Assembly (NCBI RefSeq): GCF_000511355.1
Contig: NC_023135.1
Location: forward strand, 2,196,371 to 2,260,370
Direction: 5' to 3'
DNA: 64,000 bases
Source of the DNA: Leisingera methylohalidivorans DSM 14336
GTDB lineage: Bacteria; Pseudomonadota; Alphaproteobacteria; Rhodobacterales; Rhodobacteraceae
Shown: piece by piece, positions 32,834-39,619 of the stretch
Position numbering within the stretch: the first letter of the stretch is position 1
How the letters are laid out: each line of letters begins with the position of its first letter
Program-made: the position numbers and the translations under genes
The notes under the pieces: generated by a model
Seen by the model: only the letters and a program-made list of their open reading frames with translations
Told to the model about the DNA's origin: nothing
The model's database searches: none

Positions 32834-34213
32834 CTAATTGGTTATGATCTCCGGCCCCATCACCGCGTTCGGCAGCACGGTGGACAGCCAGGGGATATAG
32901 GTGATCATGATCAGGAAGACAAAGAGCACCGCCAGGAACGGCAGCGCCGCCCGCACCACCCCCATCATCGGCATCCCCGCCACCCCCGAGGTCACGAACA
33001 GGTTCAGGCCGACCGGCGGGGTGATCATGCCGATCTCCATGTTCACCACCATGATGATGCCCAGATGGATCGGGTCGATGCCCAGCTCGATGGCAATCGG
33101 GAATACCAGCGGCGCGACAATCACCAGCAGCCCCGAGGGTTCCATGAACTGGCCGCCGATCAGCAGGATCACGTTCACGATCACCAGGAACATCACCGGG
33201 CCGAAACCCGCGGACAGCATCGCATTGGCAATCTGCTGCGGCACCTGCTCGTCGGTCAGAACGTGCTTCAGGATCAGCGCGTTGGCGATCACGAACAGCA
33301 GTGTCACGGTCAGCTTGCCCGCCTCGAACAGCGTGTGTTTGGTGTCGCTGTGCAGGAAGGCCGTCAGCAGCGCATAAGGCTTCTTGATCAGCGGCGTCTT
33401 GGCCGCGCCCTCGCCGTTCGACAGCGGCCCCATGTCCTTGTAGACAAAGCTCGCGATGAAGAAAGCATAGACCGCCGCCACCGCCGCCGCCTCGGTCGGC
33501 GTGAAGATGCCGCCATAGATGCCGCCCAGGATGATCACGATCAGGAACAGCCCCCAGCCCGCATCGCGGGCCGAGGTCAAGACCTCGCCCCAGCCCTTCC
33601 ACTCGCCCTTGGGCAGATTCTTGACCTTGGCCATCACATAGATGGTCACCATCAGCATCAGACCCGCCATCAGCCCCGGAATCACCCCCGCCAGGAACAT
33701 CCGGCCGACGGAAACCTCGACGGCGGCCGCATAGACCACCATCACAATCGACGGCGGGATCAGGATGCCCAGGGTGCCTGCGTTACAGATCACACCGGCC
33801 GCGAATTCCTTGGAATAGCCCACTTGCCGCATGCCCGCGATCACGATGGAGCCGATCGCCACCACGGTGGCAGGCGAGGAACCGGACAGGGCCGCAAACA
33901 GCATGCAGGCAAAGACGCCCGCAATCGCCAGACCGCCCGGCAGATGCCCCACACAGGCAATCGAAAACCGGATGATCCGCCGCGCCACGCCGCCGGTGGT
34001 CATAAAACTTGAGGCCAGAATGAAGAACGGGATCGCCAGCAGCGTGAAATGCCCCTCAAAGGCTTCAAACAGCGTGCCCGCGACGCTCGCCAGCGAACTG
34101 TCGGAGTAGATCAGCAGAAAGATCGTGGAACTCAGGCCCAGCGACACCGCAATCGGCACCCCGATCAGCAGCAGGCCGATCACCATCGCAAAGAGGATTA
34201 CCACTTCCATCAA
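32834..34213 (-). CDS. dctM: TRAP transporter large permease, DctM
   Basis: Large membrane subunit of a sodium-coupled TRAP transporter. It has 459 residues and about a dozen hydrophobic segments, with FAALSGSSPATVVAIGSI and TPPVGLNLFVTSGVAG, both typical of DctM. The ATG overlaps the dctQ stop (4 bases), so the subunits are made together. A bidirectional terminator ends the operon. Confidence 0.95.
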   Translation of the reverse strand: MMEVVILFAMVIGLLLIGVPIAVSLGLSSTIFLLIYSDSSLASVAGTLFEAFEGHFTLLAIPFFILASSFMTTGGVARRIIRFSIACVGHLPGGLAIAGVFACMLFAALSGSSPATVVAIGSIVIAGMRQVGYSKEFAAGVICNAGTLGILIPPSIVMVVYAAAVEVSVGRMFLAGVIPGLMAGLMLMVTIYVMAKVKNLPKGEWKGWGEVLTSARDAGWGLFLIVIILGGIYGGIFTPTEAAAVAAVYAFFIASFVYKDMGPLSNGEGAAKTPLIKKPYALLTAFLHSDTKHTLFEAGKLTVTLLFVIANALILKHVLTDEQVPQQIANAMLSAGFGPVMFLVIVNVILLIGGQFMEPSGLLVIVAPLVFPIAIELGIDPIHLGIIMVVNMEIGMITPPVGLNLFVTSGVAGMPMMGVVRAALPFLAVLFVFLIMITYIPWLSTVLPNAVMGPEIITN

Positions 34214-34887
34214 TCATTCTCCCCGCGCTGCGCCCGCACGGCGTCCAGCTCATCTTCCACTTCATGGCTGGCCACCAGCCGGTCCACCTCACCGCGCGCG
34301 ATCTGGAAAGCCGCCTGGATGAAACGGAACACCAGCAGCAGCATCGACACCGGCAGCACCGCATAAGGCACCACTTTCGGCAGTTTCTCGTAGGACTCGC
34401 CGTAGTTGATCAGATCTTCCAGAAACTTGAAGACCGCCACCATCGGCACATCCTGCACCTCGTAAAAGCTCTGGCTGCGCGCCGTCATGTCGAACCCGGT
34501 CGGGAACCACCGCCCCGACGTGGGCGGCAGATCCGCAAACACCGCCCAATAGTCATAGGCGCCTTTCAAGAGCAGCAAGGAGAACACGATGCAGCAGGCG
34601 GCGGCAAACAGGCCAACCGCCCGCCGCGCACCCGGCGCCAGCATGTTGACGATGGCATCGACACCCAGGTGCGCATGCGCCTTTACCGCGTAGGACGCCC
34701 CCAGCAGCACCAGCCAGGCAAACAGGAACACGGTCAGTTCCAGCGCCCACAGGATGTTGGAATTGAACACGAAACGCGCGATCACATTGGCAAAGGTGAT
34801 GATTGTCATCAGCCCCAGCAGCAGTGCGATCAGGGTTTCTTCGAGTGAATTGAGTAGCCCGGTTGGGCCGGTTCTTGCCCCCGACAT
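34210..34887 (-). CDS. dctQ: TRAP transporter small permease, DctQ
   Basis: Small membrane subunit. The 225-residue sequence has four spans (ETLIALLLGLMTIITFANVI; LELTVFLFAWLVLLGASYAV; AVGLFAAACCIVFSLLLL; VLPVSMLLLVFRFIQ) with the family core around KAHAHLGVDAIV. A hydrophilic insert of about 60 residues lies between spans three and four. It is separated from dctP by 113 bp containing a strong hairpin. Confidence 0.92.
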   Translation of the reverse strand: MSGARTGPTGLLNSLEETLIALLLGLMTIITFANVIARFVFNSNILWALELTVFLFAWLVLLGASYAVKAHAHLGVDAIVNMLAPGARRAVGLFAAACCIVFSLLLLKGAYDYWAVFADLPPTSGRWFPTGFDMTARSQSFYEVQDVPMVAVFKFLEDLINYGESYEKLPKVVPYAVLPVSMLLLVFRFIQAAFQIARGEVDRLVASHEVEDELDAVRAQRGEND

Positions 34888-35000: not shown

Positions 35001-36002
35001 TTACAGGCCTGCGTTGATGGCCTGCGCCGCGTCGATTTTCTCCTGGCCGACGTCGCCTGCGAATTTCTCCCAGACCGGCTTCATCGCCTCGACCCAGGCT
35101 GCCCGCTGCTCAGGCGTCAGCTCGCGCACCACGCCGCCGGCATCGATGATCGCCTGCTTGGCCTCGCTGTTCACCTTGGTGGATTCGGCATTCCGGGTCG
35201 CAGTCACCTCGTTCAGGATGGTCAGGAACTGGTCGCGCACCGCCGGATCCAGGCTGTCCAGCCAGTCGACCGAGGTCACCACCAGATAGTCCAGCGCGCC
35301 GTGGTTGGTCTCGGTCACACCGTCCTGCACTTCAAAGAATTTCTTGCCATAGATGTTGGACCAGGTGTTTTCCTGCCCGTCCACAACCCCCTGCTGCAGC
35401 GCGCCGTAAACTTCTGAAAACGCCATTTTCTGGGGCGAGCCGCCAATCGCTTCCATCTGCGCCACCAGCACGTCCGAGGACTGCACCCGGAACTTCAGCC
35501 CTTTGGCGTCCGTGGGCTCCACCAGCGGCTTGTTGGCCGACATCTGCTTCATGCCATTGTGCCAGTAGGCCAGCCCCTGCAGGCCCCGGCGCTGCATCGA
35601 ATCCAGCATCTCCTGGCCGGTCTCCGATCCCTGGAACGCATCCACCGCGTCGATGTTCTTGAACATGAACGGCAGGTCGAACAGGCGGAACTGCTTGGTG
35701 AACTTCTCAAACTTCGACAGGCTCGGCGCGGCCAGCTGCACGTCGCCCTGCAGCATCGCCTCCAGCACCTTGTTGTCATTGTACAGCGTCGAGTTCGGAT
35801 AGACCTCGATGCACATGGTGCCGTTCATCTCTTCGTTCACCCGCTTTTCCAGCAGCGAGGCAGCGATGCCCTTGGGATGCTTGTCGGTATTGGTGACGTG
35901 GCTGAACTTCACCACGATTTCGCCGTCGTCGCAGGCTGCCGAAGCTGCGCCTGCGGTAACGGCCAGTGCCAGTGCGGTGGCGGCAGTGGTCAGGAATTTC
36001 AT
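35001..36002 (-). CDS. dctP: TRAP transporter substrate-binding protein, DctP
   Basis: Periplasmic receptor for an organic acid, probably a C4-dicarboxylate. Residues 1-23 form a signal peptide (ending GAASAA). The DctP fold shows FSHVTNTDKHPKG, the conserved carboxylate-binding arginine in LKFRVQSSDVLV, and VDGQENTWSNIY. It has 333 residues. GGAGGAAA lies 7 bases before the ATG at 36002. The adjacent DctB/DctD genes support a dicarboxylate substrate, but this is inference. Confidence 0.93.
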   Translation of the reverse strand: MKFLTTAATALALAVTAGAASAACDDGEIVVKFSHVTNTDKHPKGIAASLLEKRVNEEMNGTMCIEVYPNSTLYNDNKVLEAMLQGDVQLAAPSLSKFEKFTKQFRLFDLPFMFKNIDAVDAFQGSETGQEMLDSMQRRGLQGLAYWHNGMKQMSANKPLVEPTDAKGLKFRVQSSDVLVAQMEAIGGSPQKMAFSEVYGALQQGVVDGQENTWSNIYGKKFFEVQDGVTETNHGALDYLVVTSVDWLDSLDPAVRDQFLTILNEVTATRNAESTKVNSEAKQAIIDAGGVVRELTPEQRAAWVEAMKPVWEKFAGDVGQEKIDAAQAINAGL

Positions 36003-36199
36003 GGTCTTTTCCTCCCAGAAAAATCTCTCGTAAATCCGATGTTGCATTCAGCGCATGGCTGAAGCCCGCTCAGAGCATCCCAAGTTGCGCAAAACCGCTC
36101 AACAATTGATTCGAGACTCACCGGACGCCTGAATTTTCCTCATTTTTGCATAGGCTTACCGCCGCCATTGAACCCTCCGCAGACGAGGGAAGTCAAAGC

Positions 36200-36217: not shown

Positions 36218-36232
36218 GGGCGCTCCCGGCTT

Positions 36233-36250
36233 TGTGCGGAAATCCGCACA
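36233..36250. promoter_or_regulatory. Dyad operator 2, candidate DctD site
   Basis: TGTGCG-N6-CGCACA within a longer 10-bp-arm dyad (36231-36252, arms TTTGTGCGGA). From memory, rhizobial DctD upstream sites have the same TGTGC/GCACA arms. This is the stronger of the two sites. Confidence 0.75.
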
Positions 36251-36638
36251 AATGTTAGCGCCGGACAGAAAACCCGGGAATCATGCAGTTGCCCGCCCTC
36301 ACGACAGGTCCGCAGGCGCCCCGGTCAGGGGTGTTGCGCCCCCGGCGCACGCCCCGCTTGCCGGTCCTTAACGCGGCCCTGCGATACTCTCCTCCGTCGC
36401 GACACGCGGTGCGGACTGACACCCCGCACCAACAGGAGATCACAGGGCCCCCAAGACCACCTCCTCATCGGGTGCAGGGGCGCCCCGAAACGAAGGCTTC
36501 ACGCGGGCATGGGATTAAAACCCCATCCTCCCTCCGCCCCCTGCCCCATTCCGGGGTTTCCGGCGGCGCCGCCTCCTTCATACCCCGGCAGCAGTGCCGG
36601 ACCAGACCAGCCGCAAGGCACCGCGGCCGCCAGCGTTC

Positions 36639-37868
36639 TCAGCGCCGGTAATCCTCGGGCCGGATGCCATAGCGGGCCAGCTTGTCATAAAACGTCTTGC
36701 GCGGCAGCCTCAGGGCTTCGGCGGCCGCAGCCGCGCGCCCGTTGGCCCGGCCCAGCGCCGCAATCAGCAGCGAACGCTCCACCTGCGCCATCTGCTCGGC
36801 CAGCCCCAGCCCCGTGGCTGCCGCAGCTTCCTCGGGCATCCCCAGCACAAACCGCATCGCCGCCGACATAAGGGAGCGCGCATTGCCCGGCCAGTCCTGT
36901 GCCATCAGCGCCGCCAGATGATCCTGGGAAATCTCCGGCGCCGCGATCCCGGCCTGCTCCGCCGCCTGCGCCACGTAATGGCGGAACAGCACCGGAATGT
37001 CGCCGGGACGCTCGGCCAGCGACGGGATCCGCACCCGCATCACATCCAGCCGGTAAAACAGGTCCGGGCTGAACCCGCCTGCCTGTACCTTATCCGCCAG
37101 ACCGGCGCTGGAACCGGCAAGGATGCGCACCCCGCCGCCCTGCTCCAATTGCGCCAGCAGCGCATATTGCGCCGCCTCCGGCAGGCTCTGCACCTCGTCG
37201 AGAAACAGCGAGCCGCCGGCGGCCTCGGTGCACAGCTCCGCCACCGTCTCCGCCGCCAGACCGGCGGCCGGGCGTTTCACAAACGGCCCCTGCCCCGCGG
37301 GCGACATCAGATGGATAACCTCGGCCACCTTGGAAATGCCGCTGCCCGGCGCCCCGGTGACCAGCACCTCGGCCCCGGTCGGCGCCACCGCCCGCACCCG
37401 CCGCCGCATTTCTTCAGCCTGGGGCGAGCTGCCGAACAGCAGCCGCGCGGCCGGATCGCCGGTTTCCAGCTGCCGTTTCAGCCGCCGGTTCTCCAGCACC
37501 AGGGCGCGGGTTTTCAAAGCGCGCTCCAGCACCGGCAGGAAATCGGCGGCGGCGCAGGGTTTTTCAAGAAAATCAAAGGCGCCCCGCGACATTGCCTTCA
37601 CCGCCATCGGAATGTCGCCCTCGCCGGTCAGCAGCACCACCGGCAGCTCGTCATCGGCCCCCCGCGCATAATCCAGCAGATGAAACCCGTCCCGCCCCGG
37701 CATCCGGATGTCCGACACGATGATGCCGTCAAACCCCGGTGCGATGTGATCCTTGGCCGCCACAAAGGACCCGCAGGCGATCACTTCCAGATCGTTCAGC
37801 TCCAGCGTCTGCGCCAGCGCCTCGCGCACCGCCGCATCGTCGTCGACCAGCAGCACCTTGCGGGTCAT
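36639..37868 (-). CDS. dctD: DctD-type response regulator lacking the GAFTGA loop and P-loop lysine
   Basis: Receiver domain with D10/D11, phosphorylation site D53 (GIIVSDIRMPG) and K103. The central domain is that of a sigma-54 activator but is altered. Where the P-loop should read GxxGxGKE it reads GAPGSGIS (172-179), and the segment from PFVKRPAAG to AAGGSLFLDEV is about 25 residues shorter than usual, with no GAFTGA. Walker B (221-226) and the FYRLDV...P.LAERPGDI region remain. The C-terminus has WPGNARSL and a Fis-type helix-turn-helix (AAAAAEALRLPRKTFYDKLA). It overlaps dctB by 4 bases. The 409-residue length agrees with the loss. Confidence 0.9.
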   Translation of the reverse strand: MTRKVLLVDDDAAVREALAQTLELNDLEVIACGSFVAAKDHIAPGFDGIIVSDIRMPGRDGFHLLDYARGADDELPVVLLTGEGDIPMAVKAMSRGAFDFLEKPCAAADFLPVLERALKTRALVLENRRLKRQLETGDPAARLLFGSSPQAEEMRRRVRAVAPTGAEVLVTGAPGSGISKVAEVIHLMSPAGQGPFVKRPAAGLAAETVAELCTEAAGGSLFLDEVQSLPEAAQYALLAQLEQGGGVRILAGSSAGLADKVQAGGFSPDLFYRLDVMRVRIPSLAERPGDIPVLFRHYVAQAAEQAGIAAPEISQDHLAALMAQDWPGNARSLMSAAMRFVLGMPEEAAAATGLGLAEQMAQVERSLLIAALGRANGRAAAAAEALRLPRKTFYDKLARYGIRPEDYRR

Positions 37869-39619
37869 GCGGCATCTTCTTTCTGCTCAGCGCCCCGCCA
37901 AGGCTCCAGCTCGACGGTGAACATTGCGCCGCCGCCGGTGTTGGTGCCGCGGATATTGCCGCCGAAACTCTGCACCAGCCCATAGGAGATCGACAGCCCC
38001 AGCCCCATCCCTTCGGAGCTGCCAACCGCCTTGGTGGAATAAAAGGGATCGAACATCTTCTCCGGCTCCCGGATGCCGGGACCGCTGTCCTGCACCCGCA
38101 CCTGCAGCCGCGGCCCGGTCTCAACCGAGACCGCGATCATCTTCTCCGTCTGCCCCTGCATCGCATCCGCCGCGTTGTTGATCAGATTGACAAACACCTG
38201 CGTCAGCCGCACCTCGCCGCCCCAGGCCAGAACCGGATCCGCATGGCGGCCCCGGTCCCAGCGCAGCGCCACCTGATCCGCCTTCAGCCGCGGCGTGGTC
38301 AGCTCCACCGCGGTATCGATCACCTGCAGCAGATCCACCCGGCCCATCGGCTCGCTCTCGTTGCGGGCAAAGGCGCGCAGGTTCTTGATGATCCGCGCCA
38401 TCCGCGCCGCCATATCGGCGATCCGTCCCAGGTTCTCGCCGGTGCGCTCCGCCTTGCCGCGCTGCAGAAAGGCGGTGCCGTTTTCGGCATACTGCTGGAT
38501 CGCCATCAAGGGCTGGTTCAGCTCATGGCTGATCCCCGCCGACATCTGCCCCAGCGCCGACAGTTTGCCCGCCTGCACCAGATCCTCCTGCGCGCGTTTC
38601 AGCGCCGCCTCGGCCTCCTCGCGCTCCCGCACCTCCCGGCGCAGCCGGTCATTGGCCAGCGACAAGGCCTTGGTGCGCTGTTCCACCCGGCTTTCCAGCA
38701 CCGCATTGGCCTCGGCCAGGGTGCGGCGGCGCTCCATCACGATGAACAGCATGGCGCCGAACGCCAGGCACACCGCCGCCAGCGCCGCCGCCTGCAGCGC
38801 CGCAATGGCCCTGGCCGGCGCCACATCCACCAGGATCTCGCCGGTCATGCCGATCACCGGCAGCTGCACCGACAGGTGCAGCGCCTGCTGCGGCAGATAG
38901 GCACTGCCCCGCAGCGACCAGATCTCATGCCCGGCGTGCAGGCGCTTGCCGGTCACCTGCGGCTTGCCGGCGGCCGGTTCCGCGCCGACCCGCTGCCAGA
39001 ACAGCAGTTCCGAGCGGTTGGCAATGAACACCTCGCCGGTTGCATTGGTAAAAAACACCGCCGGCAGCGAGCCGCGCCAAGTCTGCTCCACATCCGCCAC
39101 ATCGGCCACCACCACCAGAGCGCCGCGCACCCGCCCGTCAGCCCCAAAGGCCGGAGCGGCATAGAAATAAGCCCGCTTGCCGCCCGGCTGCAGCACGCCG
39201 TGGCCGGTGCCCAGGGCCCCCTGCATGGCACGGGTAAAGTAGCCCTGCCGGGCCACGCCGGCCGCCGCCACCCCTTCGGCAGCCGCCAGCACCGTCCCGT
39301 CTGCAGCGGCAAAGAACACATCCAGCGCCGCGGTTTTATCCGCAACCGACCGCAGCAGCTCTGCCGCCTGCGCACGCAGGTCCGGCGCAGACAGATCCCG
39401 CAGGGCCGGGTGTTCCACTGTCAGCACCGCCAATTCCTGATAAACCTGCAACTGGGTGCTGACCCGGTCCGACGCCAGCGCCAGATCCGCCGCACTGCGC
39501 TCGGCCAGGCTGTCCAGCGCCTGGCGGTAGCCGTAAGACCAGACCGCCAGCGCCAGCGCCGCCACCGCCAGCAAAAACCCGGCAGGCAGGCTCCAGCGAA
39601 GATAGTTTTGTGTTTTCAT
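37865..39619 (-). CDS. dctB: C4-dicarboxylate sensor histidine kinase, DctB type
   Basis: Membrane kinase partner of DctD. Two spans at about 9-30 and 271-295 bracket a periplasmic tandem-PAS sensor with the AYFYAAPAFGADGRVRG ligand region. A coiled coil (300-350) leads to the H-box SAGISHELNQPL (H365), then the N-box NLINNAADAM, G1 DSGPGI and G2 GMGLGLSI. The length of 584 residues is typical. It is first in the dctB-dctD operon and divergent from the P450 gene with 59 bp between starts. Confidence 0.94.
   Translation of the reverse strand: MKTQNYLRWSLPAGFLLAVAALALAVWSYGYRQALDSLAERSAADLALASDRVSTQLQVYQELAVLTVEHPALRDLSAPDLRAQAAELLRSVADKTAALDVFFAAADGTVLAAAEGVAAAGVARQGYFTRAMQGALGTGHGVLQPGGKRAYFYAAPAFGADGRVRGALVVVADVADVEQTWRGSLPAVFFTNATGEVFIANRSELLFWQRVGAEPAAGKPQVTGKRLHAGHEIWSLRGSAYLPQQALHLSVQLPVIGMTGEILVDVAPARAIAALQAAALAAVCLAFGAMLFIVMERRRTLAEANAVLESRVEQRTKALSLANDRLRREVREREEAEAALKRAQEDLVQAGKLSALGQMSAGISHELNQPLMAIQQYAENGTAFLQRGKAERTGENLGRIADMAARMARIIKNLRAFARNESEPMGRVDLLQVIDTAVELTTPRLKADQVALRWDRGRHADPVLAWGGEVRLTQVFVNLINNAADAMQGQTEKMIAVSVETGPRLQVRVQDSGPGIREPEKMFDPFYSTKAVGSSEGMGLGLSISYGLVQSFGGNIRGTNTGGGAMFTVELEPWRGAEQKEDAA

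Follow-up and report, generated by a model that had tools for sequence, protein, structure and literature searches.

Enhancer-binding proteins are defined by the ATP-driven opening of sigma-54 promoters. Loop-less activators that work on sigma-70 are already known, including NtrC of Rhodobacter capsulatus, which uses tandem distant sites, and VpsR of Vibrio cholerae. According to an excerpt of PMC10274813, R. capsulatus NtrC, a response regulator without GAFTGA, activates through sigma-70 with the housekeeping polymerase, and needs ATP binding but not hydrolysis. The same excerpt describes VpsR, an AAA+ regulator without GAFTGA, as activating a sigma-70 target with no need for ATP. It describes Caulobacter NtrC, a loop-less alphaproteobacterial enhancer-binding protein with an 8-residue deletion, as acting at sigma-70 promoters with its Walker A and B residues required. 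HupR, TyrR and DhaR appear in an excerpt of PMC3162934 as paralogues that no longer interact with sigma-54.

The DctD of Sinorhizobium meliloti acts on dctA with sigma-54, keeps GETGSGKE and GAFTGA, and has a perfect -24/-12 element before dctA. We analysed a DctD that resembles it in domain order, adjacent kinase and sequence (38.5% identity), and that precedes dctPQM instead. A first-pass annotation of this DNA had proposed comparing roseobacter and Sinorhizobium DctD proteins; the roseobacter short form has neither motif.

The gene lies in a window (the whole stretch of DNA that was analysed) of 64,000 nt from Leisingera methylohalidivorans DSM 14336 (NC_023135.1, 2,196,371-2,260,370); all positions given are window positions. 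The five dct genes are all on the minus strand, and protein identity between this locus and Leisingera loci is mostly 90-94%. The genes are:

37865 to 39619, minus strand: dctB, encoding a sensor histidine kinase; the stop codon overlaps the start of dctD (ORF list, Pfam)
36639 to 37868, minus strand: dctD, 409 aa, with receiver, pseudo-AAA+ domain and Fis-type HTH (ORF list, Pfam)
35001 to 36002, minus strand: dctP, TRAP solute-binding protein; start taken as the ATG after GGGAGG, the longest ORF beginning at 36047
34210 to 34887, minus strand: dctQ, small permease subunit of the TRAP transporter (assigned from position and length)
32834 to 34213, minus strand: dctM, large permease subunit of the TRAP transporter (assigned from position and length)

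The dctB product has HisKA and HATPase domains above their Pfam cut-offs and a Cache domain below its cut-off. In DctD, the receiver, the sigma-54-activator AAA+ domain, the AAA lid and the Fis-type HTH each score above the cut-off. Its features are:

37536 to 37856, minus strand: receiver domain, approximately residues 5-111; D10, D53, T81 and K103 kept (Pfam, alignment)
37329 to 37355, minus strand: degenerate P-loop GAPGSGISK, residues 172-180; Ile178 replaces Lys (alignment)
37218 to 37286, minus strand: residues 195-217; the L1/GAFTGA stretch is 19 residues shorter here (alignment)
37191 to 37208, minus strand: Walker B, LFLDEV (residues 221-226); present in this protein, degenerate in some relatives (alignment)
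37050 to 37070, minus strand: arginine-finger region SPDLFYR, residues 267-273; Ser267 marks the first Arg lost, Arg273 is kept (alignment)
36669 to 36791, minus strand: Fis-type HTH, residues 360-400 (Pfam)

We found that the window DctD has lost the loop with which proteins of its class open sigma-54 promoters: there is no GAFTGA in the stretch from PF (195) to GG (218), which has 23 residues compared to 42 in 26 long relatives. The shortfall is thus 19 residues, and not the approximately 25 first reported. The earlier statement that Walker B and the arginine region are kept holds for LFLDEV and Arg273; it fails for the Arg of FRxDL, which is Ser in this protein and which corresponds to R162 of PspF. 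The sensor-II Arg is retained.

The predicted structure of DctD (mean pLDDT 90.9, pTM 0.58) keeps the AAA+ core, at 1.5-2.0 A over approximately 208 residues to FleQ, FlrC and NtrC1, and its receiver superposes on the S. meliloti DctD crystal structure at 1.6 A. The placement of the domains is poorly fixed in the model (13-23 A over whole chains). VpsR is among the fold matches of the model.

By profile match and AAA+ fold, the protein belongs by descent to the PF00158 superfamily. Among the attributes of functional sigma-54 enhancer-binding proteins, it has the Walker B Asp-Glu. It lacks GAFTGA, the P-loop Lys and the full pair of arginine-finger residues, and neither sigma-54 in the genome nor a -24/-12 element at the target was found. 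An adjacent DctB-type kinase, an intact phosphorylation pocket, DctD-type palindromes at a C4-dicarboxylate transporter and its grouping with GAFTGA-bearing DctD proteins in the tree mark it as a DctD by descent.

The parallel with R. capsulatus NtrC drawn by the first-pass annotation is supported by the sequence comparisons. Both proteins are response regulators without the loop, and work with the housekeeping polymerase is a prediction for DctD. However, DctD goes further: NtrC needs ATP binding (excerpt of PMC10274813), whereas the window DctD has no P-loop Lys and so lacks an ATP-binding P-loop of the NtrC type. Caulobacter NtrC differs similarly, since the deletion in DctD spans 19 residues and its Walker A is dead. 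VpsR is likened to DctD by description and fold; it is not a DctD, and it binds c-di-GMP according to the title of its structure entry. HupR, TyrR and DhaR are likened to DctD by description only, through their lost sigma-54 interaction (excerpt of PMC3162934).

We found that these losses are shared by a large set of orthologues. The survey covered 296 genomes of the family, taken to be Rhodobacteraceae, drawn with a 90% completeness floor and gave 138 full-length short forms (rows counted by hand, excluding edge fragment G072). Every one of these loci was retrieved, 119 first and the other 19 later. Intact short forms numbered 137, one each from 137 of the 296 genomes; the counts that follow are over related, non-independent sequences. 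Loci L013-L142 (n=130) comprised 118 short forms, 11 long or odd forms that were kept apart, and L043, which has a premature stop and is counted among the 106 promoter-count loci below and not among the proteins. The long-form set was 26 after a 174-aa fragment (L188) was dropped. One further record, L204 (JAHVJD010000001.1), is labelled Nocardioides marinus and encodes a roseobacter-type DctD at 85% identity; it is probably mislabelled.

The P-loop Lys was absent from all 137 intact short forms, as first reported for the window protein (GAPGSGISK, Ile178), and the position was occupied by I (69), T (44), V (16), L (3), N (3), M (1) or S (1). A motif search over 80 named loci plus the window gave I 75, V 5 and F 1. 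The missing GAFTGA was likewise confirmed across the set: the PF-GG stretch was exactly 23 residues in 137/137, against 42 in the 26 long forms. The FRxDL Arg was found in 0/137, the second finger residue was R in 112, K in 22 and another residue in 3, and the Glu after the sensor-II Arg was lost in 137/137, with the Arg itself kept in 136. Walker B retained D in 131/137 and E in 118/137. In contrast, Lys, FRxDL Arg, second finger Arg and the Glu following sensor-II Arg were each present in all 26 long forms. The receiver of the short forms was nearly invariant (D53 and K103 in 137, D10 and T81 in 136 of 137, the exceptions being one gap and one Ser). Since both losses are uniform in 137 intact orthologues that agree with one another, chance, sequencing error and single-strain decay are ruled out as their source.

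A basic residue is fixed two places after the lost Lys in all 137 short forms. This P-loop position 9 (window residue 180) is K in 135 and R in 2; in the 26 long forms it is V, L, I, M or E.

Based on these comparisons of sequence and on the operator, promoter and rpoN results below, we think it probable that this DctD is an ATP-independent, enhancer-type activator of dctPQM that would act through housekeeping (sigma-70-type) RNA polymerase. The protein might instead behave like R. capsulatus NtrC, activating at a sigma-70-type promoter with a need for ATP binding and with K180 replacing the lost Lys. The invariant basic residue fits this idea, as do the Walker B residues (D 131, E 118) and sensor-II Arg (136) kept in most of the 137 proteins and the Lys retained in the four other such regulators of the window's genome. 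However, no short form has the canonical Lys, the FRxDL Arg or the Glu that follows the sensor-II Arg, and the Walker B Glu varies in 19/137. Because these losses are the pattern of a dead ATPase, we regard ATP-dependent activation of the NtrC kind as unlikely. With Walker B mostly kept and a new basic residue at position 9, some nucleotide binding could be left.

We found two palindromes upstream of dctP, both within the dctD-dctP gap, that are predicted DctD sites (palindrome search, cross-locus comparison):

36231 to 36252, no strand: distal palindrome TTTGTGCGGAAATCCGCACAAA
36200 to 36217, no strand: proximal palindrome TGTGCGAAATCCCGCACA, with a spacing of 33 bp to its distal partner

In the direction of dctP, the distal palindrome reads TGTGCGGATTTCCGCACA; the same 18 letters make up a palindrome of S. 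meliloti pSymB that lies in the dctA-dctB interval and likewise stands beside dct genes. Exact matches to TGTGCGN6CGCACA occur in three places in the genome, and two of these are the dctP pair. Downstream dctP was recognised in 112/130 loci, 106 of them short-form. Two sites above 8 bits at 32-34 bp spacing were present in 89 of these 106 and one site in 17, scored with a matrix built from the very loci that were then scanned. The dctD-dctP gap ranges from 204 to 1185 bp, yet the distance from the sites to the start of dctP varies only from 178 to 269 bp. A separate pair of tandem palindromes, at G000:C1:2957274-2957317 (L276, L282), has a GTGCGCTATAACGCAC core, a spacing of 26 bp and a centre unlike that of the predicted DctD sites.

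We found that a promoter-like pair, TTG-N20-NNNNNT, lies at a fixed distance from the palindromes in most relatives. The corresponding predicted elements in the window are:

36097 to 36102, minus strand: predicted -35, TTGAGC (cross-locus comparison)
36074 to 36079, minus strand: predicted -10, GATGCT, 17 bp after TTGAGC (cross-locus comparison)
36146 to 36158, minus strand: IHF-like site TAAGCCTATGCAA, weak (6 of 9; consensus score)

Measured from the proximal palindrome, TTGA occurred at offset 116 +/-2 in 54/106 short-form loci, compared to a maximum of 12 and a mean of 6 in 200 shuffles. (Shuffles here and below kept single-base composition only.) TTG at offsets 109-123 was found in 88/106 loci, and 67 of the 88 had a T ending the hexamer 17 bp after TTGNNN. 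Nine other 15-bp spans had TTG in 21-47 loci and then the T in 2-19, the 19 coming from an overlapping span. No TTG was present in the expected span of 18/106 loci. The -10 T was found in 56/68 loci from genomes without rpoN and 11/20 from genomes with it. Among the 19 later-fetched loci, 15 had dctP, with TTG in 13/15 and the T in 11 of those 13. The window's hexamers are poor, and a consensus scan called no sigma-70 promoter at its dctP; this would be expected of an activator-dependent promoter, but also if there were no promoter.

IHF-like sequences (YAANNNNTTGATW, 8-9 of 9) lie between the palindromes and the promoter in 38/106 loci; the controls gave 4.7 by shuffling and 12 in the opposite orientation. 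Matches scoring 7 or more peak at offset 60.

These data bear on a second alternative, in which the chief role of DctD is to hold dctP in the off state, as a repressor or as a DNA-binding protein controlled by phosphorylation. The sequence supports DNA binding and not activation as such, and loop-less Caulobacter NtrC represses some sigma-70 promoters (excerpt of PMC10274813). However, the sites are at least 97 bp upstream of the predicted -35 with no promoter overlap, they hold their distance to dctP while the gap to dctD varies, and the -10 is weak, as in activated promoters. We consider repression distinctly unlikely.

We found no -24/-12 element above chance in the short-form loci (119 scanned; one scored 9 of 12 and the rest 8 or less). 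The pattern was TGGCACGN4TTGCW, in which GG and GC were mandatory; it scored 12 of 12 at dctA of S. meliloti and 10 at one dctA from Azospirillum. Across the 130 loci there was one score of 10 (L068) and one of 9, and shuffles gave approximately 0.9 at 10 or above and 7 at 9. The L068 match is 98 bp before dctP, and L068 is the sole GAFTGA form among the 130. Shuffles of the 130 yield about one such score, and what makes this site suggestive as a sigma-54 promoter is solely its position at the single GAFTGA locus. L182, also with GAFTGA, scored 10 within 500 bp; this is uninformative because L189, with GAFPGA, scored the same. A Paracoccus plasmid DctD (L145), in which no GAFTGA was seen, had no -24/-12 match before its dctA. 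Few loci underlie the -24/-12 contrast to sigma-54 promoters.

A third possibility, that dctD is a decaying gene without function, appears very improbable. One relative, L043, has a premature stop, but 137/138 listed full-length copies are intact, the sites and their spacing are conserved, and dN/dS is approximately 0.1-0.2 in every domain. The values were 0.17 for the receiver, 0.19 for AAA+ and 0.09 for the HTH (250 of 470 close pairs, which are non-independent), indicating that dctD is, by sequence, under purifying selection. In L043 (G008), where dctD is cut by the early stop, both palindromes and dctP are still present.

We found no rpoN in the window's genome (4.65 Mb, 3 contigs, listed as 100% complete). 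Profile searches gave no PF04552 match, and the only TIGR02395 hit was a stray of 19.7 bits; the frame in question, of 417 aa, looks by eye like a LacI-type regulator. In the family, 102/296 genomes had PF04552 at E <= 0.001, and 93/296 had a solid match after nine with only a short partial match were set aside; among the 93 is G027, in which rpoN is a broken fragment. Approximately two thirds of the sampled genomes are therefore without a solid match. A solid match was found in the genomes of 31/137 short forms. We rejected the idea that the short DctD is a simple consequence of rpoN loss on the basis of these 31; DctD appears to have been converted, and rpoN lost, in separate events. That DctD still works on sigma-54 polymerase, in a mixed ring with another enhancer-binding protein, is hardly credible: those 31 rpoN-bearing genomes would permit it, but rpoN was not found in the window's own genome by profile searches and 119 short-form loci are no better than shuffles for -24/-12.

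The proposal of the first-pass annotation that a sigma-54 activator has been converted to another mode is strengthened by the missing rpoN match, the clade-wide losses, the lack of -24/-12 matches and the TTG pair at a fixed distance, which together point to such a conversion.

DctD is the only one of five sigma-54-type response regulators in the window's genome that lacks the P-loop Lys. Three of the other four have no such loop motif and one has GAFPGA; the NtrC-type regulator retains GESGTGKS. One response regulator in this genome, in which rpoN was not found, L001 (G000:C1:3446792-3447295), has GASGTGKE and GAFPGA. L003 (G000:C1:2022828-2023286) belongs to a second DctB/DctD-like kinase/regulator pair, with the Lys kept and GAFTGA absent.

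We found that the short forms are a single clade (SH-aLRT 99 with 118 rows; 100/100 with 27 representatives). Below it branch L064 and L063, and then L065 (supports 95/40, 100/95 and 100/99), which keep the Lys and both finger Args and have a shortened loop without GAFTGA. L068 and L182, from rpoN-bearing genomes, branch next below and have both GAFTGA and the Lys. The short clade groups with L068 and L182 at 99/97, and then with S. meliloti and Azospirillum at 92/61. Because L063-L065 retain the Lys with a shortened loop, and L068 and L182 below them have both, we infer that the loop was lost first and the ATPase afterwards. The middle steps of this order come from three rows, the placement of L064 is weak, and the tree alignment included the loop and P-loop columns.

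The promoter change may be tied to loss of the loop rather than loss of the Lys, from very few rows, because L063 and L065, which keep the Lys, show TTG near 116. L063 has TTGATC-N17-TTCTGT at offset 116, with a proximal palindrome that is hardly recognisable; L065 has TTG at 113 and poor palindromes. L064 does not match the layout, and L068 has no TTG at 116.

Two other groups were seen in the trees. L066, L067, L069 and L070 fall on a long branch next to the short clade; the 27-representative tree did not include them. They are diverged DctD-like proteins with the P-loop Lys and no recognisable Walker B, and no dctP was recognised downstream of them. A second full-length DctD group keeps the Lys and has an altered loop (GAFPGA, GAFAGA, GAYPGA, GAFPNA and similar). 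It includes L071, L072, L073, L150, L153, L160, L164, L176-L181, L183-L187 and L189-L193, is found in genomes with and without rpoN, and its 8 treed members are one clade. An excerpt of PMC3162934 describes a Thr/Ser-to-Pro change at this place of the loop in deviant relatives and mentions Jannaschia. The altered-loop group may be another route away from sigma-54.

Returning to ATP-independent activation by DctD, the reading that we prefer, we suggest the following. DctB would phosphorylate D53 of DctD, and phospho-DctD would bind the two palindromes, which lie approximately 140 and 175 bp upstream of a start predicted near window position 36067, some 7 bp past GATGCT. With the DNA from palindromes to promoter bent by IHF, the bound DctD oligomer would contact polymerase at the weak promoter, TTGAGC-N17-GATGCT, and either recruit or stabilise it there, with the AAA+ domain serving as an oligomerisation and contact scaffold and not as a motor. 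Phosphorylation, binding, looping, polymerase contact and transcription are each steps that we infer from sequence features. Points that weigh against this reading are the window's poor -10 and weak IHF-like site, the 18 loci lacking TTG, the less frequent -10 T in rpoN-bearing genomes and the largely retained Walker B. We also lean, somewhat less firmly, toward the wider view that these proteins are a pseudo-AAA+ enhancer lineage without a motor, which would act ATP-free from approximately 140-175 bp upstream in a rigid, IHF-bent layout, having lost the loop before the ATPase and kept the operator.

An excerpt of PMC10041152 gives mutant fitness values for R. pomeroyi of -0.25 for SPO2630, a 'C4-dicarboxylate TRAP regulatory protein', and of -0.17 and -0.65 for dctQ (SPO2627). 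From the order of the tags, our guess is that SPO2630 is the counterpart of this DctD. Titles and the starts of abstracts, in a search with most subscription journals outside its scope, yielded no roseobacter DctD without GAFTGA. Relative to the known loop-less activators, what appears to be new is a DctD lineage that is also without an ATPase, together with a probable order of losses and a rigid promoter layout.

The Pfam label 'Sigma-54 interaction domain' is misleading for this DctD, because approximately two thirds of the 296 sampled genomes are without a solid rpoN match. One family lines up stages from a sigma-54-type activator to a motor-less, likely sigma-70-type one, and across these stages the operator is kept and the promoter apparently exchanged. 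The series makes testable the order of losses, activation from a distance by a dead AAA+ ring, and the way in which a regulon can outlast its sigma factor.
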